A stretch of 64,000 nucleotides of DNA from Dyella halodurans (GTDB lineage Bacteria; Pseudomonadota; Gammaproteobacteria; Xanthomonadales; Rhodanobacteraceae): assembly GCF_026283925.1 (NCBI RefSeq), contig NZ_JAPDPF010000003.1, positions 310,001 to 374,000 of the forward strand. The letters run 5' to 3'. The notes below the pieces were generated by a model, which searched no databases, was not told the origin of the DNA, and was given only the letters and a program-made list of their open reading frames with translations. This document shows positions 49,518-64,000 of this stretch, in pieces; the stretch's first letter is position 1; every line of letters starts with the position of its first letter. The position numbers and the translations under genes are program-made.

Positions 49518-50020
49518 CCGCGCTCAAGTATCTCGGCGGCTATCCGCCGCCCTTGCTGGACAAGGTTCGGCAACTGATTGAACGCGACGAGCTTGGCGAC
49601 TATCTGCAGCGACGCCATCCGGGGCGCCATGAGGTGCAGAGCGACAAGGCGCTGTACGCGTATACCAATGCGCTGCGCCAGGAACATATGCGCAACTCGC
49701 CGGGCATTGACCGGGTCTGGTACGACAGCAAGCTGGACGTGATCCAGCGTGCGCTGGGCCTGCATACGGCCATCTCGCACATCCACGGTGGACGCCTGAA
49801 GGCACGCAAGGAGATCCGCATCGCCTCGTTGTTTCGCGAGACGGCGCCGGAGTTCCTGCAGATGATCGTGGTGCACGAGCTGGCGCACCTGAAAGAGCCT
49901 GAGCACAACAAGGCGTTCTACCAGTTGTGCGAATACATGCAGCCGGACTACCACCAGCAGGAACTCGACCTGCGCCTGCATCTGACCTGGCGTGACGTGC
50001 TCGCCGCGCGCGCCTCGTAG
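49514..50020 (+). CDS. YgjP-like metallopeptidase-domain protein
   Basis: 168 residues. The zinc site is 'VVHELAHLKEPEHNKAFYQLCEYMQPDY': HExxH followed by a third His in 'EPEHNKAFY', as in the YgjP/WLM group. 'RKEIRIASLFRETAPEFLQMIVVHELAHL' confirms the fold. Target unknown; the family includes proteins linked to DNA-protein crosslink repair and to type I restriction loci, neither of which is seen here. Translationally coupled to the preceding 93-residue protein. Confidence 0.88.
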   Translation: MTALKYLGGYPPPLLDKVRQLIERDELGDYLQRRHPGRHEVQSDKALYAYTNALRQEHMRNSPGIDRVWYDSKLDVIQRALGLHTAISHIHGGRLKARKEIRIASLFRETAPEFLQMIVVHELAHLKEPEHNKAFYQLCEYMQPDYHQQELDLRLHLTWRDVLAARAS

Positions 50021-50164
50021 CCCACCGGCAACTACGCTACGACCCGTGATGGCCACGGACAGGCAACGCGGGCCACACGCAGAGCCTGAACAGACCCTAG
50101 AATAACGGCCTCCCGCGCCCGCCCGAACGGCGCGTCGCCTAACCTGAGTGGATGGTGTCGCTCC

Positions 50165-51079
50165 ATGAGCCGCAAGCTATTGCAGCTGTTTCAACGTCGC
50201 CCGCGCCTGGTCAGCATTGGCGGCCGTGCCTTCGTCAGCGAGGGGCTGACGCGGCGTTTCTGGGATGACATCTACCACTTCGCCCTCACCATCCGCTGGC
50301 CTGTGTTCTTCGGCCTGGCCGCCACCATCTTCGTGCTGTTGAACGTGGTGTTCGCGGTCTTCTATCAATTCGGCGACAACGCCATCGCCAACCAGTTTCC
50401 GCGCAATTTTGGCGGTGCGTTCTTCTTCAGCGTGGAGACCCTGGCCACGGTCGGCTACGGCGACATGCATCCACAGACGATCTACGGGCATCTGGTGGCC
50501 ACGGTAGAGATCTTCACCGGCATGCTCAGCATTGCCCTGGTCACCGGCCTGGTGTTTGCGCGGTTCTCCCGTCCGCGCGCGAAGATGATCTTCGCCGACC
50601 ATCCCATCGTGCGCCGCATCCACGGCCAGCCCACCTTGATGATCCGCGCCGCCAACGCGCGCCAGAATGTGATTGCCGAAGCCTCGGCCAGGCTACACCT
50701 GCTGGTTCGGGAAACCTCGCCCGAAGGCTTCCGCCTGCGGCGCATCCACGACCTCAAGCTGCTGCGGGACAGCCACCCGGTGTTCTCGCTGAGCTGGAGC
50801 CTGATGCACGTGATCGATGAAAACAGCGTGCTGCACGGCATGACGCCCGAAGCACTGGCGGAGGCGGAGGCGACCTTGATGCTGACCATCGAAGGCATCG
50901 ACGAGACCACCTCGCAATCGATGCTGGCACGTCGCCAGTGGAACCATCGGGACTGGCGCTGGAATCACCGCTATGTCGACCTGGTGCATGACGACGAACT
51001 GGGCGTCAGCCATATCGACTACGGCGTCTTCCACCACGTGCTGCCGGTGGGCGAGGACGAGGACTCCGATCGCTTCTGA
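50165..51079 (+). CDS. Inward-rectifier potassium channel (KirBac type)
   Basis: 304 residues. There are two membrane helices (about 44-68 and 108-132) flanking a pore helix and the K+ filter T95-V-G-Y-G-D100, then a cytoplasmic beta-sandwich domain ('IHGQPTLMIRAANARQNVIAEASARLHL', 'DLKLLRDSHPVFSLSWSLMHVIDENS'). The N-terminal slide-helix 'DDIYHFALTIRW' is typical. Tetrameric inner-membrane channel; ligand control is not visible. Confidence 0.93.
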   Translation: MSRKLLQLFQRRPRLVSIGGRAFVSEGLTRRFWDDIYHFALTIRWPVFFGLAATIFVLLNVVFAVFYQFGDNAIANQFPRNFGGAFFFSVETLATVGYGDMHPQTIYGHLVATVEIFTGMLSIALVTGLVFARFSRPRAKMIFADHPIVRRIHGQPTLMIRAANARQNVIAEASARLHLLVRETSPEGFRLRRIHDLKLLRDSHPVFSLSWSLMHVIDENSVLHGMTPEALAEAEATLMLTIEGIDETTSQSMLARRQWNHRDWRWNHRYVDLVHDDELGVSHIDYGVFHHVLPVGEDEDSDRF

Positions 51080-51084
51080 CCTTC

Positions 51085-52047
51085 TCAGAGCGTAAGCAGC
51101 ACCTTGCCGATCGCGGCGCGACTCTCCAGAAACGCATGCGCCCGGGCGCCATCGCGCAGGGCAAAGCGCGCGGCAATATGGGCTTTGAGGGCGCCGCAAC
51201 GCAGCTGCTCAAACAGCGCCGCAGCCCGCTCCCTGCGGCTCTCGGGGCCGGTCAACACGTTCCACAGGTCGCCGCCGGTGAGGGTGAGCGAGCGGTCCAT
51301 CAGCAGGCGCGGATCGACCGGATCGGGATCACCCGCCGCCATGCCGTAGAACACGACGGTGCCGCCGATGCGTGCCGCCGCCAGGCTATCGCCCAAGGTG
51401 CGCCCGACGGAGTCGTAGACCACATCCGCGCCATGCCCGCCCGAGAGCTCCCTGGCCGCCGTGACCCAGGCGTCATAGCCGACGGCCACGTCGGCACCTG
51501 CGGCAATCACCGCGTCGCGCTTCGCTTCACTGGAGGCAATGCCCAGCACGACTGCGCCGAGCGACTTCAGCATCTGCACCAGCAACAAGCCCACGCCGCC
51601 CGCGGCGGCGTGCACCACGGCCACGTCGTCCGGTCGCACCATGAAGCTGTCGGTCACCAGGTACTGCGCGGTCAGGCCCTGCAGCAGCACGGCGGCGGCG
51701 GTGTCGAAATCGATGTCGTCGGGCAAGGGAATCAGGCGATCCCGGTCGACCACGACCAGCTCGGCATTGGCGTGCGCCATGTCGGCAAAGCCGACGCGGG
51801 TCCCCGCGGGGAACAGCTGGTCGCCTGGCACCGGCGTTTCGACCACGCCAGCGCCTTCGTACCCGAGCGTCCACGGTGCCGAGCCGCTGAGGTGGTAGTT
51901 GCCGTTGCGGCGATACACATCGGCGAAGTTGAGCCCAACGCTGCGCATGCGCACGCGCACCTGCCCAGGGCCGGGCACGGGATCGGGCTGTTCCGACCAA
52001 TGCAGCACATCGGCGGCGCCAAAACGATCGAAGGTCAGAGCATGCAT
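51085..52047 (-). CDS. NADPH:quinone oxidoreductase family protein
   Basis: A 320-residue MDR-family enzyme of the Qor/zeta-crystallin type: 'VGLNFADVYRRNGNY', 'PWTLGYEGAGVVE', and the Rossmann loop 'VVHAAAGGVGLLLVQMLKSLGAVVLGIASSEAKRDA', with no zinc ligands. TTGAGGAATC precedes ATG 52047. Convergent with the KirBac gene (5 bp apart). A distant paralogue lies at 39.2 kb. Confidence 0.9.
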   Translation of the reverse strand: MHALTFDRFGAADVLHWSEQPDPVPGPGQVRVRMRSVGLNFADVYRRNGNYHLSGSAPWTLGYEGAGVVETPVPGDQLFPAGTRVGFADMAHANAELVVVDRDRLIPLPDDIDFDTAAAVLLQGLTAQYLVTDSFMVRPDDVAVVHAAAGGVGLLLVQMLKSLGAVVLGIASSEAKRDAVIAAGADVAVGYDAWVTAARELSGGHGADVVYDSVGRTLGDSLAAARIGGTVVFYGMAAGDPDPVDPRLLMDRSLTLTGGDLWNVLTGPESRRERAAALFEQLRCGALKAHIAARFALRDGARAHAFLESRAAIGKVLLTL

Positions 52048-52206
52048 GGAAAGATTCCTCAAAACGACATCGGATGCAGCCAAGGATGCCAGCCTTGACC
52101 TTCAGGCTGGCCCTTCTCCGTTCCGCTGGCGCGCAAACGATCACAGCACACGCCATTCACCAGACGTGTCTCAGGTCAAGCCGATCTGCGCGTGGCCCGC
52201 GCCGGC

Positions 52207-53547
52207 TCAGCCGGTCGGGACCGGTACTTCGCTGGCCCGGTTGAAGTCTCCGATGGCCTCGACCAGGTCGGTCACGGCGAGGCGCTCGACGTCCGTGAGG
52301 TCCGGGTTCCAGCTATCCAGGATCAACACCACGCGCGTCTCGTTGCTGTTGTTCCAGGCTTCGTGCTCGAAGGTGTCGTCGAAGGTGACGCAGCGCCCTT
52401 CCTGCCATTCGTGAATCTCCCCGCCGACGCGGATCGCGCAGTCCGACGGCACGATCAGCGGCAGGTGCGTGACCAGACGCGTGTTGGTGACGCCGCGATG
52501 CGGCAGGATGTGGGTACCCGGACGCAGCACCGAGTACAAGGTCTCCGGCGCGTGGTCGCGAATGCGCACCAGCGGCAGCGAGTCGAGCAGACCTGACGTA
52601 CGCGGGCAGCGGGCGCACTGCTCGTCATAGCGTTCGCCATGCCGATAGAAGAAGTAGCCATCCCACACGGCCGCCTGGCTGCCGGACGAACGCAGATGTT
52701 CCTTGAGCTCCTCCGGCGAGCGCTCGCCCAGGAACGGCTGCAACGGCTGATTCTCCGCCAGCACCGCCATCAGCTCCTCGCGGACCGCTGCGGTCGCGGC
52801 TTCCAGCTCGGCTTGCCATGGAAAGCGGGAGGTCGGGTAATAGGTTTGACTGGGCACGCCAGGGAAATACAGGAACTTGGGCTTTTGCCGCGGATCAGGC
52901 AAGGGCGCCGGTTGTTCGCCAAGATAGATGGCCAGGCATTGTTCGACTCGCGCCAGCTCGGCGCGTCCGTAGCGCTGCCGCAACGGCTCCAGCACCGCAT
53001 CGAACACCGGGCGTCGACCCGCGTCGATGAACTGGATGGCGTGCTTCACCGCCCCCTGCAAGCCTGGCGCCGTCGTCGCATCGTTCAACCAGCGGCCTTG
53101 CGTTTGCGCGGCGTTGACGGCGCCGAAGTAAGCCAGCAGTGCGCCATGCGTCTCGCCCAACTGCTCCAAGGTGATGCCCAGACGCAAGCGGGCCACGAAG
53201 ATCTGGGGGGCCAGTTGCAGACAGCGCCGCAAACTACGCAGGGCGCCTTGCAGATCACCCGTCGCCATCTGGGCTGCGCCCAGCTGATGCAGCGTGTCAG
53301 GCGCATCGGGTCGTGCCCGTTCGGCGGTCAGCAACATGGCCACGGCACGCACGGCGTCCCCACGCACCAGGTGGCGGCTGGCCAGGAACTGCAGCGCCTC
53401 CACATCGCCGGGAACCAGCTCGAGCAGCCGGGCGAAAGACTGCTCCGCCAACATGGCGTCTCCCTGCCGCAATCCGTTTACCGCCATTTCGCGCAGTGCC
53501 GCGGCACCTGCCTGAATCCCGCCATTCATCGTCTGATCTACTGCCAT
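52207..53547 (-). CDS. TPR-fused aspartyl/asparaginyl beta-hydroxylase-like protein
   Basis: 446 residues. The N-terminal half (about 15-215) is made of TPR units ('GLRQGDAMLAEQSFARLLELVPGDVEALQFLA', about 25-56, and three more). The C-terminal half is an Asp/Asn hydroxylase cupin: iron His H350 in 'ILPHRGVTNTRLVTHLPL', second His H395 in 'FDDTFEHEAWN', and the 2-oxoglutarate Arg R405 in 'ETRVVLILDSW'. Family members hydroxylate Asp/Asn side chains of proteins. No signal peptide, so it acts in the cytoplasm. Divergent from the first TPR-sulfotransferase across 140 bp. Confidence 0.9.
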   Translation of the reverse strand: MAVDQTMNGGIQAGAAALREMAVNGLRQGDAMLAEQSFARLLELVPGDVEALQFLASRHLVRGDAVRAVAMLLTAERARPDAPDTLHQLGAAQMATGDLQGALRSLRRCLQLAPQIFVARLRLGITLEQLGETHGALLAYFGAVNAAQTQGRWLNDATTAPGLQGAVKHAIQFIDAGRRPVFDAVLEPLRQRYGRAELARVEQCLAIYLGEQPAPLPDPRQKPKFLYFPGVPSQTYYPTSRFPWQAELEAATAAVREELMAVLAENQPLQPFLGERSPEELKEHLRSSGSQAAVWDGYFFYRHGERYDEQCARCPRTSGLLDSLPLVRIRDHAPETLYSVLRPGTHILPHRGVTNTRLVTHLPLIVPSDCAIRVGGEIHEWQEGRCVTFDDTFEHEAWNNSNETRVVLILDSWNPDLTDVERLAVTDLVEAIGDFNRASEVPVPTG

Positions 53548-53687
53548 GCCCCGTTACTACCCCATGGAAAGACCGCCGGCCTCGTCGCGGCGGGTATGGG
53601 CATAATAGACGCGTTTTGAGAGGCCGTACGCATCGTGGCGCCCGCCAGATGGTGCGCTGCGAAAACACCGTCCTGAGAGGGGTTTTG

Positions 53688-55265
53688 ATGAATCCGCGTC
53701 TACAAGGTCTGGGACCAGCCGCCACCCAACACGTGATGATCGCCGGGCAGGCGCTTGACGCCGGACGGGTGGCCGAGGCCGACCAGCATCTGTCCGCTGC
53801 CCTGGCCGCTTATCCGGACCACCCCGAAGTGCTGCGCATGAAGGCCGGTGTGCATAGCCTGCGCGGCGAGCATCAGGACGCGATCCGGGCCATGCAGCGT
53901 GCGCTGACGCAACGCCCGCAGGACCCGCTCTACTACAACACCATGGGTTCGCTGCTGGGCAGCAGTGGGGAATACGAGGCGGCGATCCAGGCCCTGCGTC
54001 GGAGCTGCGAGCTGCAGCCCGGTCTCGCCCTGGCCTGGTACAACCTCGGCATCATGCTGACCAAATGCGTGCGCAACGAGGAAGCGGTGAAAGCCCTGCA
54101 GCGCGCCATCGCGCTGGCGCCCGACCATGTCGCCGCACGGGCGCTGCTCGCCGATCTGCTGCGCACGCGTGGGCGGGTGACGGAAGCCGCGGCGGAGTAC
54201 CGCGCGCTGATCGCCAAGCATCCCACCGCGGGCATGGCCTGGTGGGGCCTGGCCGATCTGAAGACGCAGCGCTTCAGCGAGGATGATGTCGCACAGATGC
54301 GCGCCGCATTGCAGCGCCCGGAGGCGAGCGAACACGATCGCACCGCGATCGGCTTTGCCCTGGCCAAGGCGCTGGACGACGCGGGCCGCTACGACGAATC
54401 GCTCAGCGCCCTGGCGACGGCGAATACCATCGCGCGCCGGCAGCAGACCTGGAATGCGGCGGCGTTCTCGAACAGCGTCGCGGCGATTTCCAGCGCGTTC
54501 GAGCCGGCCCCTCCCGCTGCTGCCGATGCGCTGGGCCGCGAGGTGATCTTCATCGTCAGCCTGCCGCGCTCCGGCTCGACCCTGATCGAACAGATCCTCG
54601 CCTCGCATTCGCAAGTGGAAGGTGCCGGTGAACTGCCCGACCTGCCGCAGGTGCTGGCCGAGGAATCGCGCCGCCGCGGCAAGCCATTCCCGCAGTGGGT
54701 TGGCGATATGCAGGCACCGGACTGGCAGCGCCTGGGGCAACGCTATCTGGAGCGCACCGTGCACTGGCGTCGCGAGCGTCCGGTCTTCACCGACAAGCTG
54801 CCCAACAACTGGATCTACATCGGCGCCATCCGTGCGATGTTGCCGGGCGCCCATATCGTGGTCTGCCGACGCGATCCGCTGGAGACCTGCTTCTCCTGCT
54901 ATCGCCAGCAGCTCGACTACAGCAACGGCTACAGCCGCACCTTCGACGACCTGGCCAGTTTCTGGCGCGACTTTAATCGCAGCGTGACGCGCAGCGCCGC
55001 GCTGCACCCCGGGTTTGTCCGCGAAAACAGCTACGAAGCGCTGGTTGCCGATGCGGAGCCGCAGATCCGCGAGCTGCTGGCGTTCTGCCAGCTGCCGTAC
55101 GAGGAGGCCTGCCTGAATTTCCATGAGAACGTGCGTGACGTACGCTCGCCCAGCGCCACCCAGGTGCGCCAGCCCTTGCGCCGCGATACGGCCCGCTCGC
55201 ATCGCTATGGCAGCCTGCTCGATCCATTGCGCAAGGCACTGAACCTGCCACCGTTCCAGGCATGA
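53688..55265 (+). CDS. TPR-sulfotransferase 1
   Basis: 525 residues. Five or six TPR units cover about 15-260. The sulfotransferase domain has the PAPS 5'-phosphosulfate loop 'PRSGSTLIEQIL' (293-304) and the 3'-phosphate motif 'VVCRRDPLETCFSCY' (about 391-405). Such fusions transfer sulfate from PAPS to an unknown hydroxyl, probably in a protein held by the TPRs. GAGAGGGG precedes the ATG. The stop overlaps the start of the next sulfotransferase by 4 bp. No signal peptide. Confidence 0.92.
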   Translation: MNPRLQGLGPAATQHVMIAGQALDAGRVAEADQHLSAALAAYPDHPEVLRMKAGVHSLRGEHQDAIRAMQRALTQRPQDPLYYNTMGSLLGSSGEYEAAIQALRRSCELQPGLALAWYNLGIMLTKCVRNEEAVKALQRAIALAPDHVAARALLADLLRTRGRVTEAAAEYRALIAKHPTAGMAWWGLADLKTQRFSEDDVAQMRAALQRPEASEHDRTAIGFALAKALDDAGRYDESLSALATANTIARRQQTWNAAAFSNSVAAISSAFEPAPPAAADALGREVIFIVSLPRSGSTLIEQILASHSQVEGAGELPDLPQVLAEESRRRGKPFPQWVGDMQAPDWQRLGQRYLERTVHWRRERPVFTDKLPNNWIYIGAIRAMLPGAHIVVCRRDPLETCFSCYRQQLDYSNGYSRTFDDLASFWRDFNRSVTRSAALHPGFVRENSYEALVADAEPQIRELLAFCQLPYEEACLNFHENVRDVRSPSATQVRQPLRRDTARSHRYGSLLDPLRKALNLPPFQA

Positions 55266-56911
55266 GCGTGTCCGCAGGCATCCCGGCGCAGGCCTCGAAC
55301 GTGAGCGAACATGCCCTGGCCCTCTACGATCAGCAGCTCGCCCAGGGTTCGCCGCAACAAGCTCGTCAATCACTGATCGATGCGCTGGCGGAGGCCTCCG
55401 AACAGGCCTGGCTGGAATGCGGCCGAACCCTGGTGCTGCGCACCGAGCTGGAAGCGGCCATGGAAGTATTCGCAGCCGCGACCGCCCGCTATCCCGCTTC
55501 TGCCGACCTTACCCTCGGGCTCGCGGGTCTTTGCTGGCAGATGCAACGACAGGCGCAGGCCGAAGCACGATTGCGCGACTGGCTCTCGGGGCATCCAGGC
55601 GATATCGCGGCCAGCTTTCTGCTGGTGCGCCTGTTGCGCGAACAAGGCCGCATGCAGGCTGCTGCAGAGACCATGCTTAAGCTGTTCGAGCACGGCCCGC
55701 ATGACGAAGACACGGTGATTCAGGCCGTGGAAATGCTCGACGACTACGGACGTCCACAAGACGCCTCGCGCATCTGCGAAATGGCGATCGCCGCGGGCTC
55801 CGCGGACCCACGCCTGCATGCCTATGCGGGCATGCTCGGCATCCAGCTAGGCCAGTTCGAGCGTGTACGCGAACACTACGACTTCGCCCTCAGCCACGAC
55901 GTACGGGCCGTGGAATGGAACATCCCGATCGGCTTGTCCGGCTTGCAGCGTTACCGCGACGCCGATCACCCCGACTTTGCCTTGTTTCGCGAGGTGCTCG
56001 GGCGCCCCGGGTTGAGTGAGCAGGCACGCACGACGACGCTGTTCGCTCTCGGCAAGGCGCATGATGACCTTGCCGACCATGCGCAGGCCGCGCGCTATTT
56101 CAGCGAAGCCAATGCGCGCGCGCACGCCGCCCGCGCCTGGCCACGCAAGCAGTGGAAGCGCGCCGTCGAGGCGCGCCTGACCGCCCCCGCCTATTCATGG
56201 ACGCTGCCCTCGCCCGCCGACTGGACGCCAGTGTTCATCGTGGGCGTGCCGCGCTCCGGCACCACCCTGCTGGCGGAGCTGATCGCGCGGCACCCGCAGG
56301 TATGCAATCGCGGTGAACTGGGCTGGCTGCAGGTGATCGCCCAACGACTCTCGCTGACTCCGGCGAGCGAACGCAAACCGTTCGAGGAGGCGGCTGCGCT
56401 CTACGCCACGCAACTGCGCCAGGACGACTCGAACGCCCACTGGTACATCGACAAGCAGCCGCTGAATCTGCTGCACATCGATCTGATCATGGCGCTTTGG
56501 CCGAACGCTCGCATCATCCATTGCGAGCGCGATGCACGCGATACCGCGCTGTCGCTATGGTCGCAATCGTTCCACGACCAGGCGCACGACTACGCCTATG
56601 ACTTCAACGACATCGCCACGGTGATCCAGGGTTGCCGTCGGCTGATGGCGCATTGGTGCAAACGCTATCCTGCGTCGATCCGCACCGTGCATTACGAGGC
56701 GCTGGTGGCGGCGCCTGACGATGGCGTGGCTGCGCTGGCCGAATGGCTGGGCTTGCCCGCCGCCGCGTCCCTCGAGTCTACGCAGCAAGGCCGTGGCATC
56801 AGCACGGCCAGTGCGTGGCAGGCGCGCCAACCGGTGCATACGCGTTCCGCCGGACGCTGGCGCGATTACGCGCCATACTTACCGGAACTGTTGCGGATTC
56901 CCGAGCACTGA
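55262..56911 (+). CDS. TPR-sulfotransferase 2
   Basis: 549 residues. The helical TPR-like N-terminal part (about 15-300) is more degenerate than in its neighbour. The sulfotransferase domain has 'GVPRSGTTLLAELIARHPQ' (about 328-346) and 'RIIHCERDARDTALSLWSQSF' (3'-phosphate motif near 421-428). It overlaps the preceding gene (ATGA) and is translationally coupled. The short distance of the two domains and low similarity of the TPR parts suggest different protein substrates. Cytoplasmic. Confidence 0.92.
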   Translation: MSVSAGIPAQASNVSEHALALYDQQLAQGSPQQARQSLIDALAEASEQAWLECGRTLVLRTELEAAMEVFAAATARYPASADLTLGLAGLCWQMQRQAQAEARLRDWLSGHPGDIAASFLLVRLLREQGRMQAAAETMLKLFEHGPHDEDTVIQAVEMLDDYGRPQDASRICEMAIAAGSADPRLHAYAGMLGIQLGQFERVREHYDFALSHDVRAVEWNIPIGLSGLQRYRDADHPDFALFREVLGRPGLSEQARTTTLFALGKAHDDLADHAQAARYFSEANARAHAARAWPRKQWKRAVEARLTAPAYSWTLPSPADWTPVFIVGVPRSGTTLLAELIARHPQVCNRGELGWLQVIAQRLSLTPASERKPFEEAAALYATQLRQDDSNAHWYIDKQPLNLLHIDLIMALWPNARIIHCERDARDTALSLWSQSFHDQAHDYAYDFNDIATVIQGCRRLMAHWCKRYPASIRTVHYEALVAAPDDGVAALAEWLGLPAAASLESTQQGRGISTASAWQARQPVHTRSAGRWRDYAPYLPELLRIPEH

Positions 56912-56973
56912 AGGGACAGTGCTGACTGACGTTGCCGGCCGATGCGAGGATCACCGGTACGGCAGCGCGAGAC

Positions 56974-58806
56974 TCAGCCACTCACTTCGGCGGAATAGCC
57001 CCAGTGGCGCAACATCGGCTCGAGGATGGGCAGTATCGGTTCGATATCCGCCTGGTACTTGTGCCAGCGCCCCATCCCCTTGCGATTCACGGGTTCGATC
57101 ACCTGCGAGTAGCTAGGCGTACCGATGTAGGTCTTGTTGCGTGCATGCTGGTCGAAGCGCAACATCGGTGAGACATCCTCCAATTCGAGGAACTGGGCGA
57201 TACGCGCGGTCTGTTGCGGGAAGTCCTCCACCAGCGCTTCGTAACGCGACACCAGTACGGTCGGCTGGAAAATGTTTACCTGCTCGAGCCAGCGCGTCAT
57301 CGTCTCCACATAAGCGTGCGCCAGACGATCGAGCGTGCTGCAGGCGGCGGCCAGACCACTGGAGCGGAAGCTCTGCATGTAGCAACTGAGAATGACATCG
57401 CAGGGATGACGTAAGGCCAGGATGATCTTTGCTTCGGGGAACAGCCGATGGATCATCGGCAACCACTGCATGTTCAATGGATTCTTGTCGACCAGGCGCG
57501 TCTCCGCTCGACGCTGGATGCGTTCGGCCACCATGGCGTGGTAGCTCTTGCGCAGCTCATCGCAGTCGTATTGCCGCAGGACACCAAGGTCTTCCAGGAT
57601 ACGAGGATCGTGATTGCGCAATGTGAGTGCGAGGCGATTGAAGAACGGGTTCTCGTCCATCGATTGCAGGCCGGGATGCGCATCCAGCATCTGCTCGAGC
57701 AAGGTCGTGCCGGAGCGCGGGAAGCCCACCACGAAGATGGGCGAGTCGTGTGCCTCCGGGGCGATCAGCTGCGGCCAGCGAGCGTACTGTTCGGCAGACA
57801 CCAGCGGCGCGTCTACCGGCATGGCAGGTGCGTCGGGTGTGAAATACTCCGGCGAGTCGAAGCGCCTCTCGCGAGCCTCGAAGCGATGGGCCTCGCGCAG
57901 GGCCGACATGGCTTCCTCCACTTGCCCCAGCTTGTCGCACGCCGCCGCCAACTGGAAATAGTGAGCGAAGTCGTCATCGCCTTGCGGCCCGCTCTGCTCC
58001 AGCAGCTGCTTTGCGCCGGCCGGGTCCTTCCTGCGCAGCGCCAGCGTGGCGAGCAGATGGTCCGCTTCGTTGCGCTGGACTTTGCTCGCACCGGCCCCGC
58101 TGTCGACCACCGGCAATAGAATCGCTTCGGCTTCTCCCAGCCGATTGAGCCGCTCGTACAGGGTGGCCAGCAACAGCCTCACATCCAGATGACCGGGTTG
58201 CCTGGCGAGCAGGTCCTCCAGCAGCCCAGCCGCCTCGGGCACGGCGTTCTTGAGTGTCATCACCTGGGCCAGGCTCACTTGAAGCTCGTCGTTGTTCAAG
58301 GGCAGCCAGCTGCGCCACGGCCTGAGCAGGTCGTGGGCACCCTCGGCATCCTGGCAAAGCAGGCAGGCCCGGGCGGCGTTGATGCGTATCTCTGGCGACT
58401 GCGGAGCCAAGGCCACGGCGTCCAGTAATACGTCGCGAGCAGCCAGATAGTCGCGTCGATCAATCAGCAAGAGTCCCAGCTGGTTTTTCGGCGTCACATT
58501 GGCCGGATCAAGCCGGACCGCTTCCACATAGGCCGCCTGCGCCTGCTCCTGCGCGCCGGCCTCAAGCAGAACGGTCGCGTAATTGTTCCAGTGCACGCTG
58601 CTGCTCGGGTAAAGCCGTGTCAGTTCGGCATAAATCGGCAGCGCTTCCTCCAGGCGTTGCTGTAGCTGCAAGCTCATGGCTAGCAGGAGCAGCAAATTTT
58701 CGTCACGCGGATGCGCGGACAAGGCGGCCCGGCAGAGCCGCTCGGCTTCAACAGGCTGGCCCGCGTGAATCGCTGCGGTTATCTGGGAAAGTTCGTTGGT
58801 AGCCAT
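56974..58806 (-). CDS. TPR-sulfotransferase 3
   Basis: 610 residues. Eight or so TPR-like units (about 5-310) with classical 'W-N-N-Y...L' and 'A..Y..A..LDP' patterns precede a sulfotransferase domain: 'GFPRSGTTLLEQMLDAHPG' (361-379) and 'IILALRHPCDVILSCYMQSF'. ATG 58806 is used; an upstream in-frame TTG is not required. It runs convergently to sulfotransferase 2 and lies just downstream of the terminator of the TonB receptor on the same strand, so it needs read-through or its own promoter. Confidence 0.92.
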   Translation of the reverse strand: MATNELSQITAAIHAGQPVEAERLCRAALSAHPRDENLLLLLAMSLQLQQRLEEALPIYAELTRLYPSSSVHWNNYATVLLEAGAQEQAQAAYVEAVRLDPANVTPKNQLGLLLIDRRDYLAARDVLLDAVALAPQSPEIRINAARACLLCQDAEGAHDLLRPWRSWLPLNNDELQVSLAQVMTLKNAVPEAAGLLEDLLARQPGHLDVRLLLATLYERLNRLGEAEAILLPVVDSGAGASKVQRNEADHLLATLALRRKDPAGAKQLLEQSGPQGDDDFAHYFQLAAACDKLGQVEEAMSALREAHRFEARERRFDSPEYFTPDAPAMPVDAPLVSAEQYARWPQLIAPEAHDSPIFVVGFPRSGTTLLEQMLDAHPGLQSMDENPFFNRLALTLRNHDPRILEDLGVLRQYDCDELRKSYHAMVAERIQRRAETRLVDKNPLNMQWLPMIHRLFPEAKIILALRHPCDVILSCYMQSFRSSGLAAACSTLDRLAHAYVETMTRWLEQVNIFQPTVLVSRYEALVEDFPQQTARIAQFLELEDVSPMLRFDQHARNKTYIGTPSYSQVIEPVNRKGMGRWHKYQADIEPILPILEPMLRHWGYSAEVSG

Positions 58807-58816
58807 GGCACCACAC

Positions 58817-58852
58817 AAAAAAAGAGGGCCGCGTGAACATCACGCGGCCCTC
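58817..58852 (-). terminator. Intrinsic terminator of TonB receptor 1
   Basis: On the minus strand: GAGGGCCGCGTGA-TGT-TCACGCGGCCCTC followed by seven T. Perfect 13-bp stem, 24 bp after the receptor stop codon. Confidence 0.95.
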
Positions 58853-58876
58853 AAGGTTAACGCTTAAAGCTACGAC

Positions 58877-61837
58877 TTAGAACTTGACCGTCACGCGAGC
58901 CCAGAAATAGCGGCCCATCAGGTCGAAGTCGCTCGGGTCGGTGTTGGCGTTGAGCGTGTTGTTGCCGTACAGCAGCGGCGGCTGCTTGTCGAACAGGTTG
59001 TTCACGCCGAAGTCCACGCGCGTATTGATCGGTGCGATGTTGTAGCCGAGCGATACGTCGTTATACATCGTCGAGCCGTAGTGCAGGATCGTACCCGACT
59101 GACCATCCGGGAACGTGTCGTAGATCGAACCTGCGGCACCGCCGTTGCTGAAGCCGCTGATCCAACGCATACGCCACTGGGCGCTCCAGCCACCCTGCTG
59201 CCAATCCACGTAACCCTGTGCACGCCAGCGCGGGAACAAGCAGACGCCGGCATTGTCCGGGCACGCAGCGGACTGCGCGGAACCGTACGGCAGGAAGCGA
59301 CCGGCGTTCTGGTACGTGACATTGCCTGCCACGCCCGGTGCGGTTTCCTGGGTGTAGTACTTCAGGTAGGTCGCGTTGACGCCCACGTTGAACTGGCCGA
59401 ACGAGAACTGCGGCAGCTTGTAGTTGGCCGACCAGTCGATACCGCTCGAGCTCAGGCTGCCCAGGTTACCCGTCGGCTCCACCGTGGAAGCCAGCAGCTG
59501 ACCGGCGTTCGTACCGCCAGCCTGACGCTGGATGTACTGGCAGTACTGGGTCGAACCGGCAGCGCAGAGGTTCAACAGGCTCTGCAGGCCCACCGTGGTG
59601 ATGGTGTCATTGAGGTTAACGCGCCAGACGTCGAACGTGGTGGACAGACCCGGCACATACGAGGGGCTGTACACGAAGCCGAAGTCATACGACTTGCCGT
59701 GCTCCGGCTTGACCGGGAAGCCGGCCACGCGGGAACCCTGCACGACGGTCGTGGCCTGGTTGTTGTTGACGATCAGTTCGTTCTGGAACGAGCCGTCGGT
59801 CGGGACGTTCTTACAAGCCAGGGCCAGCGGCGAACCAGCCGGCGCACCGGTGTAACCGGTACACGGATCGGAATGGATCAGCGGAGCATCCGAACCCGAG
59901 AAGTACAGCTCACTGATGGACGGCGCACGGAACACGTCTTCCATCGTACCGCGCAGCAGCAAGTCGTCGAACGGCTTCCATTCCAGGGCGAACTTGAAGT
60001 TGTTCGTGCTACCGAAGGTCTGGATCTTCGAATAGCGGCTGCCAATGGTCAGGTTAAGCGACTGCACGCCCGGCAGGCCGGCGAGGACCGGAATGAACGT
60101 TTCGGCGTAGATGTCCTTGGTGTTGTAACCACCCTGCACGGCGCTGAGGCACTGGCTACCCAGCGTACAGCTACCGGTGGTCGGATCGATCACCAGCTGC
60201 GGTGCGGGAACAGTGTGCTCGTACTCGGTGCGGTACTCGGCACCGACGGCCAGCTGCACGCCACCGGCCGGCAGCGTGAACACTTCACCGTTGATGCCCG
60301 CGTGCCAGGTCTTCTCAATCGAGTAGGAATTGGAAGGGGCAACCACGTCAGCCGCCTTGATCGCGGCGACCGAGCCTGGCGTGTTGATGTCGAATGGGTT
60401 GAACTGGCACTGCACCACGCTGACGCAATTGGGGCTGGTTGCAAGACCGTCCGCACCAATCGTGGAGGAGCCCGTGTACAGCTTGGACTGATCAACCAGG
60501 CCAGCCGTCGTGGTGACGATGCTTTCGTGGCCGTAGTTGATGCCAGCATCCCAGTTCCAGTTCTTGTCCCAAACCGTGAAATCACCGCGGAAGCCGGTGT
60601 TGATCTGGGCGTCGTTCCTGCCGGTGAAGGCCTGGCGGAAGCCGTTCGAGGTCAGGCGCGATGCGAACAGGTTGCCGCCCGAACCGAACTGCACGCCGAA
60701 CGGGTTGAACGCGTTGTCCTTCGCAATCACTGCACCCGTCGAAGCCGTACCGTACACCGCCGGTGCCAACTGGAAGTTGGACGAGGTCTTCTGGTAGATG
60801 GCGTCAACGTAAGCCGTGACATGATCACCAAGGTGGTAGTCACCATTGATGAAGCCGCCGGTACGCTCCTGCGGGGTCATGATCAGGTTGACGGCCGCAT
60901 AGTTGTAGCGATCGGCATGGGTGAAGCAATGGTAGTTGGTGGTGTTGACCACCTGGCTGTTACCACCAGGGCTCAGCGCGACCTGGGTGCAGCCGAATTC
61001 GCCAGCGAGGCCGGAGGCAGCAATGCCCTTGGCCGGATTCGCAAGCGTGCCCGGGAGCTGGATACGGCCCACCGGCGAGGACGACGAGCCGCCGAAGAAC
61101 GGACCGCTGGTCGAAAGGCTGATCACGTTCTTCGAGAACGCGCGATTGGCCGCCAGGACGCCGTCCTGCTTGTTGTAGTTCAGGCCGGCCATGATGCTTC
61201 CCTTGTCGGACGTCTGTCCGAAAGTGAAGGTATAACCGCTCTGGTCGCCGTCGTTACGGTCAGACTGACCGACGTTGGCGGAGAACGTGGCACCCTGGTA
61301 GTTCTTGCGCAGGATGAAGTTCACCACGCCGCCGATGGCGTCCGAACCGTAGGTCGCCGAGGCGCCGGTCGGCAGCACTTCGATGCGCTCGATCGCGTCC
61401 GCCGGAATGGCGTTCGGATCCTTGCTGAGCAGGCGCTGGCCGTCGACCAGGATCAACGTGCGCTTCGAACCGAGGCCGCGCAGGTTGATGGACGAACCGC
61501 CGGTACCACCGCCGTTATTAACCTGCGGGTTGACGTTGCCGCCGGTCATGGCCGGCAGCTGCTGCACCAGGTCGCCAAGCGTCTGCTTGCCGGTAGCCTG
61601 GATCTGGGCGCGGTCAATGGTCACAACCGGGCTGGACGTCTCGACGTCGACGCGGCGGATCAGCGAACCGGTCACGGTGACCGTTTCGAGCGTCTTGCTC
61701 TTGGTCGGCGCCGGAGCTTCGCTGGTGGTCTGCGCGTCCTGCGCGAAAGCGGCAGTGCCGTAGGTGCTAGCAGCAAGCACACCCAGCGACAGAGCCAGGC
61801 GCACCGACGTGCACAGTTTATTTTCCCCGAACTTCAT
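58877..61837 (-). CDS. TonB-dependent outer-membrane receptor 1
   Basis: 986 residues. Signal peptide (1-32, ending AAFA-QD); TonB-box-like 'LETVTVTGSLIRR' (about 49-61); plug domain with 'QTLGDLVQQLPAMTGGNVNP', 'INLRGLGSKRTLILVDGQRLL', 'ATYGSDAIGGVVNFILRKNYQG'; a long beta-barrel ending 'GRYFWARVTVKF' with terminal Phe. Several Cys pairs occur in the predicted extracellular loops. This is the large Xanthomonad-type receptor with no STN domain. GGGAGGGTGTCTC precedes the ATG. Substrate unknown. Downstream are the TPR-sulfotransferases. Confidence 0.95.
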   Translation of the reverse strand: MKFGENKLCTSVRLALSLGVLAASTYGTAAFAQDAQTTSEAPAPTKSKTLETVTVTGSLIRRVDVETSSPVVTIDRAQIQATGKQTLGDLVQQLPAMTGGNVNPQVNNGGGTGGSSINLRGLGSKRTLILVDGQRLLSKDPNAIPADAIERIEVLPTGASATYGSDAIGGVVNFILRKNYQGATFSANVGQSDRNDGDQSGYTFTFGQTSDKGSIMAGLNYNKQDGVLAANRAFSKNVISLSTSGPFFGGSSSSPVGRIQLPGTLANPAKGIAASGLAGEFGCTQVALSPGGNSQVVNTTNYHCFTHADRYNYAAVNLIMTPQERTGGFINGDYHLGDHVTAYVDAIYQKTSSNFQLAPAVYGTASTGAVIAKDNAFNPFGVQFGSGGNLFASRLTSNGFRQAFTGRNDAQINTGFRGDFTVWDKNWNWDAGINYGHESIVTTTAGLVDQSKLYTGSSTIGADGLATSPNCVSVVQCQFNPFDINTPGSVAAIKAADVVAPSNSYSIEKTWHAGINGEVFTLPAGGVQLAVGAEYRTEYEHTVPAPQLVIDPTTGSCTLGSQCLSAVQGGYNTKDIYAETFIPVLAGLPGVQSLNLTIGSRYSKIQTFGSTNNFKFALEWKPFDDLLLRGTMEDVFRAPSISELYFSGSDAPLIHSDPCTGYTGAPAGSPLALACKNVPTDGSFQNELIVNNNQATTVVQGSRVAGFPVKPEHGKSYDFGFVYSPSYVPGLSTTFDVWRVNLNDTITTVGLQSLLNLCAAGSTQYCQYIQRQAGGTNAGQLLASTVEPTGNLGSLSSSGIDWSANYKLPQFSFGQFNVGVNATYLKYYTQETAPGVAGNVTYQNAGRFLPYGSAQSAACPDNAGVCLFPRWRAQGYVDWQQGGWSAQWRMRWISGFSNGGAAGSIYDTFPDGQSGTILHYGSTMYNDVSLGYNIAPINTRVDFGVNNLFDKQPPLLYGNNTLNANTDPSDFDLMGRYFWARVTVKF

Positions 61838-61949
61838 TGAGACACCCTCCCGTTATTTATTTATGACTGGATTTGGAAAAAATCCCCGCTCCAAACCTGC
61901 GCCCTACTCACCCATCGCAGGGAGATCTTGTAGTCAAAGCGCTACGCAT

Positions 61950-62035
61950 TTTATTGCGCTCTGCTTACGAATAGTCAACAAAATTTATACATTGTGCAAC
62001 GGTATTTTCCCACGCATAATCGCAAAGCTTTGCGA
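61950..62035 (-). promoter_or_regulatory. Promoter and palindromic operator candidate of TonB receptor 1
   Basis: On the minus strand -35 TTGACT (61978-61973), a 17-bp spacer and -10 AATAAA (61955-61950) form a good sigma-70 promoter about 115 bp before the receptor ATG. Some 40 bp upstream lies a perfect 16-bp palindrome, TCGCAAAGCTTTGCGA (62020-62035), a likely dimeric-regulator site. Confidence 0.6.
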
Positions 62036-62685
62036 CTTGCGCCGACTCTCCTGACCGGGCAAGGCCGGCACTGCGCGCTGCACCGCGGGGGCCGCGATCG
62101 GGCCGCCGCGCTCGCAAAGGAATGGATCGAGCGCTGGCAGCGCCCGCAGCGTGAACTCAGAACGAGCCCCATGCTGTTGATTTACAATGATTTAACGAGG
62201 ACATCCCCACACACTCCCGAGCACGGCCTCGTGCACACCGGAAAGGGCGACGTAGCCGCTTCACTGCATCAATACCGATGCGTATGCGGCACCCAATAAA
62301 TTGCGTTGCCGTACCGACATGGCTCATTTCGGTTTTTGATTCCTTCAGGTTTCGGGGGCGGATTCCAGGCCCGAGATGGCCTCCACCAGCCATCTCGATG
62401 GCCAGCGCAGGGTAAAAATGGCCTTGGCCCGCCTATCCGAGGCTCGGGATAGCCACGGCCAGGGCGCATCGCGCTCCGCAACGGGACCAAGACTCGCGGC
62501 CGCGATTCATCGCCCAACGCGGCCCGCGCAACTGGACGCCAGTGGGGTCCTGGGAATGTTTGGTGGCGTGCTCGCGGACGGTCCAGGTGCACACCGGCGT
62601 CCCCGCCCGACCTCGCCTGCCGCTACCCCTCAATGCCGACTGTCCCGCGAGCGGCTGCAACGGCAACGCATATCTATGGGGAACA
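62036..62685. other. Long non-coding stretch between the two receptors
   Basis: 650 bp. Short open frames on both strands have no ribosome sites, no family resemblance and no consistent codon use. One perfect 9-bp hairpin, CGAGATGGC-N8-GCCATCTCG (62372-62397), is present without T-tract. It may be the remnant of a decayed gene or an untranslated leader; nothing more can be supported. Confidence 0.5.
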
Positions 62686-62721
62686 TGAAAAAGGGCCGCG
62701 TGAATTATCCACGCGGCCCTT
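62686..62721 (-). terminator. Terminator of TonB receptor 2
   Basis: On the minus strand AAGGGCCGCGTG-GATAATT-CACGCGGCCCTT followed by TTT. The stem is a near copy of the one after receptor 1, at the same distance from the stop, so the terminator was duplicated with the gene. Confidence 0.85.
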
Positions 62722-62746
62722 CGAGGTTGACGCTACCGCTGTCGAG

Positions 62747-64000
62747 TTAGAACTTGACCGTTACGCGAGCGTAGTAATAACGCCCCATCAGGTCGAAGTC
62801 GCTCGGGTCGGTGTTGGCATTGAGCGTGTTGTTCGCGTACAGAATCGGCGGCTGCTTGTCGAAGATGTTGTTGACGCCGAAGTCGACACGCGTATTGATC
62901 GGCGCGATGTTGTAGCCGATCGACGCATCGTTATACATCGTCGAGCCGTAGTGCAGGATCGTGCCCGAGACGAAGTTCGGCTGCGTGTCGTACTGGGAGC
63001 CCGCGGCACCGCCGTTGGAGAACTTGCCGATCCAACGCATGCGCCACTGGGCGCTCCAGCCGTATTGCTGCCAATCCACGAAGCCCTGTGCACGCCAGCG
63101 CGGGAACAGGCAGACGCCCGTATTGTCGGGACAGGCGGCGGCTTGAGCCGAACCAAATGGCAGGAAGCGACCGGCATTCTGGTACGTGATATTGCCGGCA
63201 ACGCCCGGTGCGGTCTCCTGCGTGTAGTACTTCAGGTAGGTGGCATTGACACCGACATTGAACTGGCCGAACGAGAATTGCGGCAGCTTGTAGTTCGCCT
63301 GCCAGTCGATGCCGGACGTGGCTAGGCTACCCAGGTTGCCCACCGGCTCCACCGTGGACTGCAACAGCTGACCCGCATTCGGGCCGCTGGGCGTACGGTG
63401 GATGTACTGGCAATAGATGGTCTGACCGGCCGCGCACAGGTTGAGCAGGCTTTGCAGGCCCACGTTGACGATCGTATCCCTCAGCTGCACCCGCCAGACG
63501 TCCAACGTGGTAGACAGACCCGCCACATACGATGGGCTGTACACCAGGCCGAAGTCATACGAGGTGCCGTGTTCCGGCTTGACCGGGAAGCCGGCCACGC
63601 GGGCGCCCTGGATGACGGTGGAAGCCTGTGTCTGCGACGCCACGGAGCTGTTGACGAACGTGCCATTGGGGGGCACGTACTGGCAGGCCAGCGCCAGCGG
63701 CGAACCTGCCGGAGCGCCGGTGAAACCCGTACACGGGTCGGTATGGATGAAGGGGGCATCAGAAGCCGAGGTGTACAGCTCGGTGAGGTTGGGCGCGCGG
63801 AAGACGTCTTCCATCGTGCCACGCACCAACAGGTCGTCGATCGGCTTCCATTCGAGCGCGAACTTGAAGTTGTTGGTGCTGCCGAAGGTCTGGATCTTCG
63901 AGTAGCGGCTACCAATGGTCAGGTTAAGCGACTGCACGCCCGTCATGCCGGCGAGGATCGGGATGAACGTTTCGGCGTAGATTTCCTTGGTGTTATAGCC
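62747..64000 (-). CDS. TonB-dependent outer-membrane receptor 2, C-terminal part
   Basis: The reading frame is open to the window edge (about 417 residues seen), so the start lies beyond it. It is a close paralogue of receptor 1: the last approximately 400 residues align without large gaps and end 'GRYYYARVTVKF'. Differences cluster in the predicted loops (for example 'TASDAPFIHTDP' region, and 'QASTVIQGARV' versus 'QATTVVQGSRV'). Tandem duplication with the gene, terminator and spacing is evident. Substrate unknown. Confidence 0.93.
   Translation of the reverse strand, partial: GYNTKEIYAETFIPILAGMTGVQSLNLTIGSRYSKIQTFGSTNNFKFALEWKPIDDLLVRGTMEDVFRAPNLTELYTSASDAPFIHTDPCTGFTGAPAGSPLALACQYVPPNGTFVNSSVASQTQASTVIQGARVAGFPVKPEHGTSYDFGLVYSPSYVAGLSTTLDVWRVQLRDTIVNVGLQSLLNLCAAGQTIYCQYIHRTPSGPNAGQLLQSTVEPVGNLGSLATSGIDWQANYKLPQFSFGQFNVGVNATYLKYYTQETAPGVAGNITYQNAGRFLPFGSAQAAACPDNTGVCLFPRWRAQGFVDWQQYGWSAQWRMRWIGKFSNGGAAGSQYDTQPNFVSGTILHYGSTMYNDASIGYNIAPINTRVDFGVNNIFDKQPPILYANNTLNANTDPSDFDLMGRYYYARVTVKF

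Follow-up and report, generated by a model that had tools for sequence, protein, structure and literature searches.

What is modified by a hydroxylase and three sulfotransferases that all carry tetratricopeptide repeats (TPR) and are encoded directly beside TonB-dependent receptors (TBDRs)? The question is raised by a six-gene locus (HYD, ST1, ST2, ST3, TBDR1 and TBDR2) in the 4.69-Mb genome of Dyella halodurans. It lies in a 64,000-nucleotide window, the whole stretch of DNA that was analysed (positions 310001-374000 of NZ_JAPDPF010000003.1), and its positions are given below in window numbering. An earlier note, made from the sequence alone, had proposed one TPR-hydroxylase, three TPR-sulfotransferases and two TonB receptors here, and this gene set is borne out by ORFs and Pfam matches. 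We found that the receptor partnership of TPR-sulfotransferases recurs far above chance and across unrelated receptor families. The locus may be a cytoplasmic protein-modification module with the neighbouring receptor as the likeliest client, a reading to which we assign a probability of roughly 50%.

Receptors beside TPR-sulfotransferases

The Dyella genome contains 8 matches to PF13469 and 34 to the receptor plug. All three places with long sulfotransferases (the locus described here, L013 and L014) adjoin a TBDR, the chance of which is about 4e-4 for three random genes. For a wider sample, PF13469 searches covered two orders with 31 genomes apiece, and the best-scoring long frame (at least 480 aa) was taken from each genome. 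Genomes without a long frame were left out, as were those examined before (the Dyella genome itself, G031, G090, G024 and G087), G134 and G142 of the first order, which had at least 20 regions each, and G131, G140 and G147, whose long frames had weak domain scores. This resulted in 20 and 16 stretches (L184-L219). TBDRs were recognized by a hidden Markov model built from the receptors of the Dyella genome and applied to long and short groups alike.

A TBDR was found within 3 kb of the long sulfotransferase in 17/20 stretches of the first order and 16/16 of the second, that is, in 33 of 36 against the 3.1 that plug counts and genome sizes would predict; 200000 simulations never gave more than 12. 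One of the three misses (L203) is a contig of 4.4 kb. By contrast, none of 20 short-sulfotransferase controls (frames of at most 401 aa from the same searches) had a TBDR in its stretch (Fisher p 2e-12). Domain content was checked after sampling. With L013 and L014 added to the 36, there are 38 long proteins, all of which match Sulfotransfer_3 and 37 of which match TPR_19, while the short controls have Sulfotransfer_3 in 19/19 and a TPR model in 0/19 (L230, which has no frame, was left out). The association of TPR-sulfotransferases with receptors is seen in both orders; the earlier note had suggested checking how far the neighbourhood is conserved. An earlier sample spanned the phylum, with 40 long frames from as many genomes, chosen among the matches listed; in it a TBDR adjoins 5 of 9 long sulfotransferases from genomes with at least 16 plugs. 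The linked receptors are diverse: 49 of them (39 from L184-L223 together with five phylum-wide stretches that have a TBDR, the rest from the Dyella genome and family C17, with the L013 receptor counted twice) fall into 10 groups at 30% identity. Five groups are single sequences, some perhaps from cut frames. Receptor and sulfotransferase are co-oriented in 25 of the 39 pairs.

Among close relatives, the partnership extends to gene order. The closest named relatives of ST1 are in Dyella and Rhodanobacter, and a scan with ST1 as query, one genome per species, returned 67 loci, many of them cut by contig ends. The earlier note would have given up its proposal had the neighbourhood not been conserved in relatives; the order HYD-ST1-ST2-ST3-TBDR recurs in Dyella, Rhodanobacter and their kin, and a looser version is present in Phenylobacterium. 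HYD has a relative in 28 of the 67 loci, at or above 60% identity in 22 of them and at 31-34% in 6. TBDR1 has one in 46 loci, and five others contain a receptor of a different family (C17). Sulfotransferases, TBDRs and HYD are the most widely shared clusters. A co-oriented TBDR lies directly upstream of 36 of the 43 ST3 relatives, with a gap of 55-166 bp, and farther upstream (990-3558 bp) of 5; the remaining 2 have no TBDR in the stretch. The TBDR-ST3 pair is retained in L048, L053 and L059 despite a new place and orientation relative to ST1. Two Phenylobacterium loci (L071 and L073) have, in a row on one strand, a relative of HYD (33 and 32% identity), a TBDR (27 and 26%), a relative of ST1 and a gene resembling ST3; ahead of the TBDR, a small gene is predicted on the opposite strand.

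Judged by titles and the opening lines of abstracts, we found no description of TPR-sulfotransferases beside TBDRs in the open-access literature, which is weak evidence of absence since subscription papers and most preprints lay outside the search. The enzyme families are thus known, and their combination and genomic partnership apparently undescribed.

Enzymes and layout of the locus

HYD (52207-53547, minus strand, 446 aa) combines TPR with an Asp/Asn beta-hydroxylase domain (PF05118, E 1e-46), as seen in its ORF and Pfam matches, and so has the architecture of AspH. The best PDB match of its structure model is human AspH, and H350, H395 and R405, which the earlier note had considered intact catalytic residues, align on AspH residues H679, H725 and R735, named in PDB titles. 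As in AspH, the motif is HxG rather than HxD, which we take as an AspH-type mark. This motif is not decisive alone, because among the two other PF05118 proteins of the genome L011 also has HxG, while L009, LpxO-like by our reading, has HxD. Architecture and residues make HYD a predicted AspH-type beta-hydroxylase. In three related loci, HYD-like proteins (L047:8080-9333, L048:8465-9694 and L050:2135-3382) have lost both catalytic histidines and are accompanied by small 2-oxoglutarate (2OG) oxygenase genes; they are possible pseudo-enzymes.

The three sulfotransferases each combine TPR with Sulfotransfer_3 (PF13469). ST1 (53688-55265, plus strand) has 525 aa from the ATG at 53688, its ORF without start choice being 53313-55265; ST2 (55262-56911, plus strand) has 549 aa; and ST3 (56974-58806, minus strand) has about 610 aa from the likely start ATG at 58806, or 614 aa if the ORF is read from a TTG (56974-58818). 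They belong to PF13469 with 127, 122.5 and 123 bits, respectively, against a cut-off of 27 (E-values of 1.7e-36, 3.9e-35 and 2.7e-35), and all four enzymes match TPR models and, above the Pfam cut-off, a catalytic domain. In a structure model of ST3, the catalytic half finds its best fold and sequence match in the tyrosylprotein sulfotransferases TPST1 and TPST2. The residues R368, E389 and K445 (numbered from the TTG) are aligned with TPST and invariant in 33 sequences, and their equivalents are invariant in the 38 long sulfotransferases. We assume they are the Arg of the loop for 3'-phosphoadenosine-5'-phosphosulfate (PAPS) and the catalytic Glu and Lys of the TPST type. The PRSG[ST]T loop is present in each of the three enzymes, again as the earlier note had it. 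Considering the fold of ST3 and the residue positions, ST1-ST3 are predicted TPST-like enzymes.

An intergenic region of 140 bp (53548-53687) separates the divergent genes HYD and ST1; pieces of it (27-75 bp) are conserved by blastn in five relatives (L017, L019, L035, L063 and L066). ST2 shares its first 4 bp with the end of ST1 and converges with ST3, which lies directly downstream of TBDR1 on the same strand. TBDR1 (58877-61837, minus strand, 986 aa) has plug and beta-barrel matches in its ORF. TBDR2 is 81% identical to it across the whole length; the window holds its C-terminal part with a barrel match (62747-64000, minus strand), and the gene extends past the edge to about 65776 (L012:748-3777). 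The earlier note had suggested looking beyond 64 kb for more members. The remainder of TBDR2 is followed there by a gene that clusters with a PNP_UDP_1-family protein, and the genome-wide PF13469 search gave no further match on the contig.

The DNA from the TBDR1 stop to the start of ST3 contains a terminator-like hairpin followed by a T-run (58824-58852, minus strand; -31.1 kcal/mol with flanks, z -5.8). It is conserved in the aligned sequences: the core stem is retained in 14 of 14, and both sides have changed in 5 of 12 pairs. The ATG of ST3 is about 10 bases past the T-run, from which we infer that upstream transcription reads through into ST3 and expresses it more weakly. Many receptors and few enzymes would be the outcome; alternatively, ST3 may have a promoter within the last part of TBDR1. 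A second terminator-like hairpin of similar sequence is located just past the TBDR2 stop (62690-62722, minus strand). A simple scan of 52000-64000 for sigma-70 promoters came up empty, compared with 2.1 in shuffled sequence, and Rfam had no match in 50000-64000. The roughly 150 bp upstream of TBDR1 (61838-61991) are 73-80% identical in several relatives and could be a promoter or a leader.

The receptor as a proposed client

We propose that the TPR halves of HYD, ST1, ST2 and ST3 would bind an unfolded exported protein, which HYD, as an AspH-like 2OG oxygenase, would hydroxylate, and to which the three TPST-fold enzymes would transfer sulfate from PAPS before it leaves via Sec. The neighbouring TBDR would be the most likely client, its surface loops bearing sulfate esters (and hydroxyls) that could tune ligand binding or shield the surface. 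The substrate is probably a protein; that this protein is the receptor is an even bet. The partnership suggests, short of proof, that bacteria which have it decorate their receptors with sulfate before export.

Receptor composition was compared within genomes in 19 linked/unlinked pairs (one of 20 was dropped for a sulfotransferase-like frame near its unlinked receptor); the unlinked receptors were hand-picked from the top plug scores and may differ in family from the linked ones. Linked receptors have more tyrosine (44.9 vs 33.9 per 1000, p 0.0006), more tyrosine in acidic context (14.8 vs 10.0, p 0.0004) and more strict sulfation-like sites (2.8 vs 1.6, p 0.019), with no difference in the fraction of tyrosines that are in acidic context (p 0.10). 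A comparison of linked receptors from other genomes with unlinked Dyella receptors was rejected as confounded by genome.

Several observations weigh against the receptor as client. In the Dyella genome, the six receptors that are linked or are close paralogs of linked ones do not exceed the 24 unlinked ones in tyrosine (46.5 vs 51.3 per 1000, p 0.27) and are not richer in acidic-context tyrosine, and the enrichment in the 19 other genomes may reflect receptor family. Residue columns of the TBDRs compared with the presence of HYD gave nothing significant after multiple-test correction. Thousands of tests were made, the sequences being related, and the best Fisher p was 5e-5. We claim nothing from this, as the HYD-absent group also included L012, a paralog from the Dyella genome, which has HYD, and L015, a contig cut before HYD. 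Three further Dyella receptors are 81-84% identical to TBDR1, namely TBDR2 and two paralogs (L157:5872-8838 and L158:2476-5433); these two paralogs sit elsewhere, with no sulfotransferases beside them, so proximity to the enzymes is not required. Extra long sulfotransferases in TBDR-rich genomes (L220-L223) have a TBDR within 3 kb in 2 of 4 cases. In the phylum-wide sample, 0/31 long sulfotransferases adjoin a TBDR in genomes with at most 6 plugs, where little is expected by chance, and long sulfotransferases must therefore have other clients too. The hairpin between TBDR1 and ST3 is a strong one. Finally, at seven places with HYD outside the family of the window, a TBDR was found in one (L262) and a sulfotransferase in two (L257 and L262). 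Of the receptor-linked modification that the earlier note had considered, the conserved adjacency stands; the column test did not support it, and the tyrosine test was mixed.

Two stretches picked for their sulfotransferase (L198 and L222) also contain HYD and a TBDR. The only tryptophan-halogenase match of the Dyella genome (PF04820; L169, G000:C22:73686-77542) adjoins a TBDR on the same strand and is another possible receptor-side modifying enzyme. One stretch (L262, G132:C18:70500-90400) holds a fused-type hydroxylase half, a TBDR, a TPR-sulfotransferase, a small 2OG oxygenase, a methyltransferase, two HYD relatives and a peptidase.

Joint action of hydroxylase and sulfotransferase, also raised in the earlier note, is supported since both activities are predicted in single proteins, three of them within relatives of the locus. 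PF05118 and PF13469 are joined in 3 of the 67 related loci (L047, typed by Pfam; L023 and L053, by full-length clustering with L047 and both motifs). The fusion protein is matched in 31 of 151 genomes of the order: one frame spans both halves end to end in 9 genomes, among them G031, where a TGA interrupts it; G281, G290 and G227 have the halves as adjacent genes, and in G121 and G215 they lie apart within one longer frame. The fused oxygenase has HxD where HYD has HxG and therefore belongs to a different PF05118 branch, being a parallel rather than an identical case. The receptor link does not carry over: 12 of 13 fetched fused or split places have no TBDR in the stretch (the other is L252), which counts against the reading and goes against the expectation that fusions generally adjoin TBDRs. 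Fusions are found beside a PAPS synthase in L249 and beside ordinary metabolic genes in L244, L245 and L246. G121 encodes a triple-domain protein (L255:7179-10355) with PF05118, PF13469 and DUF4915. Typing of one member per cluster shows two more kinds of oxygenase in related loci: TPR proteins with 2OG-FeII_Oxy_5, whose cluster extends over 8 loci, and small 2OG-FeII_Oxy_3 proteins, which form two clusters. That one residue is first hydroxylated and then sulfated is speculative and doubtful. We consider it similarly unlikely that many Proteobacteria hydroxylate and then sulfate nascent TBDRs through TPR-guided TPST-fold enzymes and 2OG hydroxylases (sometimes fused). Where both steps fell on one side chain, they would give an undescribed modification such as O-sulfated beta-hydroxy-Asp/Asn.

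Among the alternatives, one that we hold unlikely is that the clients are other exported or surface proteins, the TPR-sulfotransferases being general modifiers of secreted proteins and the receptor merely co-regulated. It would account for the long sulfotransferases without TBDR neighbours in TBDR-poor genomes, and for fusions beside DUF4347/IPTL-CTERM surface proteins (L250:9286-13218 and L256:4766-6922), which are possible alternative clients of the fusions, or beside a carboxypeptidase (L255). It fits poorly with the frequency of TBDRs within 3 kb in the TBDR-rich orders and with sulfotransferases, TBDRs and HYD being the most shared clusters, although the other clusters were Pfam-typed in part and may hide an exported protein.

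A somewhat improbable possibility is that the ligand is modified: a secreted ribosomal peptide would be sulfated and hydroxylated in the cytoplasm, and after its export the neighbouring receptor would bring it back in. Methanobactin operons are a precedent, where the sulfotransferase MbnS and the TonB-dependent transporter MbnT can co-occur (PMC3621798), and some linked receptors of another family stand beside an M20 peptidase or a permease-like gene (name read from its first residues), which fits peptide uptake. On the other hand, the linked receptors come from many families, and Pfam matches of the ten scanned proteins include no peptide exporter. The earlier note had seen no obvious precursor-peptide gene, and we agree: the three longest ORFs of the 909-bp TBDR1-TBDR2 gap (shorter ORFs were not included) have no tblastn match outside the genome among the fetched loci, and the other gaps are of 62-140 bp.

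Lipid or glycan substrates, with HYD acting like OlsC or LpxO and the sulfotransferases acting on a lipid or surface sugar, are improbable. OlsC (112.8 bits) and LpxO (64.5 bits) are the best NCBIfam models of HYD, but these scores are far below the curated cut-offs of 450 and 500 bits and place it in neither family. The TPR domains of all four enzymes, the AspH-like HxG of HYD (HxD in L009) and the TPST-like fold of ST3 also speak for a protein. Chance or gene-order inertia among close relatives is a very remote explanation, for inherited order could explain some conservation within one family but not an association that spans two orders and unrelated receptors, exceeds expectation and controls so widely, and survives rearrangement of the TBDR-ST3 pair.

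If receptors are indeed sulfated, as the reading with the receptor as client predicts, protein sulfation would be a common bacterial modification that has been overlooked, and it would matter for nutrient capture and for phage and bacteriocin recognition. Proteomics would be affected as well, given that +80 Da is readily mistaken for phosphorylation. The prediction is directly testable in culturable Dyella or Rhodanobacter.

Comparison with known systems

HYD shares with human AspH the TPR and oxygenase architecture and the same H...H...R residues, but the relative placement of the domains differs (rmsd of 17-18 A with both aligned). AspH acts on EGF-like domains in the endoplasmic reticulum, whereas no EGF-like client was identified at the Dyella locus. 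With the lipid hydroxylases OlsC and LpxO, HYD has in common the PF05118-type domain; it differs by its TPR half as well as by its scores.

The methanobactin operons resemble the locus in encoding a sulfotransferase with a TonB-dependent transporter. MbnS belongs to PF00685, unlike the TPR and PF13469 enzymes ST1-ST3, and is thought to sulfate a peptide Thr, and the precursor MbnA is present with MbnB and mostly MbnC (PMC3621798); none of these was noticed at the Dyella locus, where no profile search was made for them. Sutterella arylsulfate sulfotransferases, one of them near a TonB gene (PMC10932419), were judged not relevant, as were PMC8269204, which does not mention TonB, and PMC4686663.

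Most bacteria lack TPST and bacterial TPSTs are sparse, according to a 2022 review (PMC9372746), in contrast to the TPR-sulfotransferases with TPST-type residues found here in most sampled genomes of two orders. The PRSGTT loop, Glu and Lys of ST3 sit at the positions of animal TPST1 and TPST2. These act in the Golgi (PMC9372746), while ST3 would act in the cytoplasm, and its catalytic half comes after a long TPR superhelix. A further known system is RaxST of Xanthomonas, a bacterial TPST-like, PAPS-dependent enzyme that acts in the cytoplasm before its substrate RaxX is secreted (PMC9372746 and PMC6637879, in the parts available). RaxST acts on a precursor of 60 residues that has a type I exporter, and those parts mention no TPR domain or TBDR for RaxST, where the Dyella locus has TPR fusions, receptors and a hydroxylase. 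RaxST is a working precedent for cytoplasmic TPST-like sulfation ahead of export (PMC9372746, PMC6637879).

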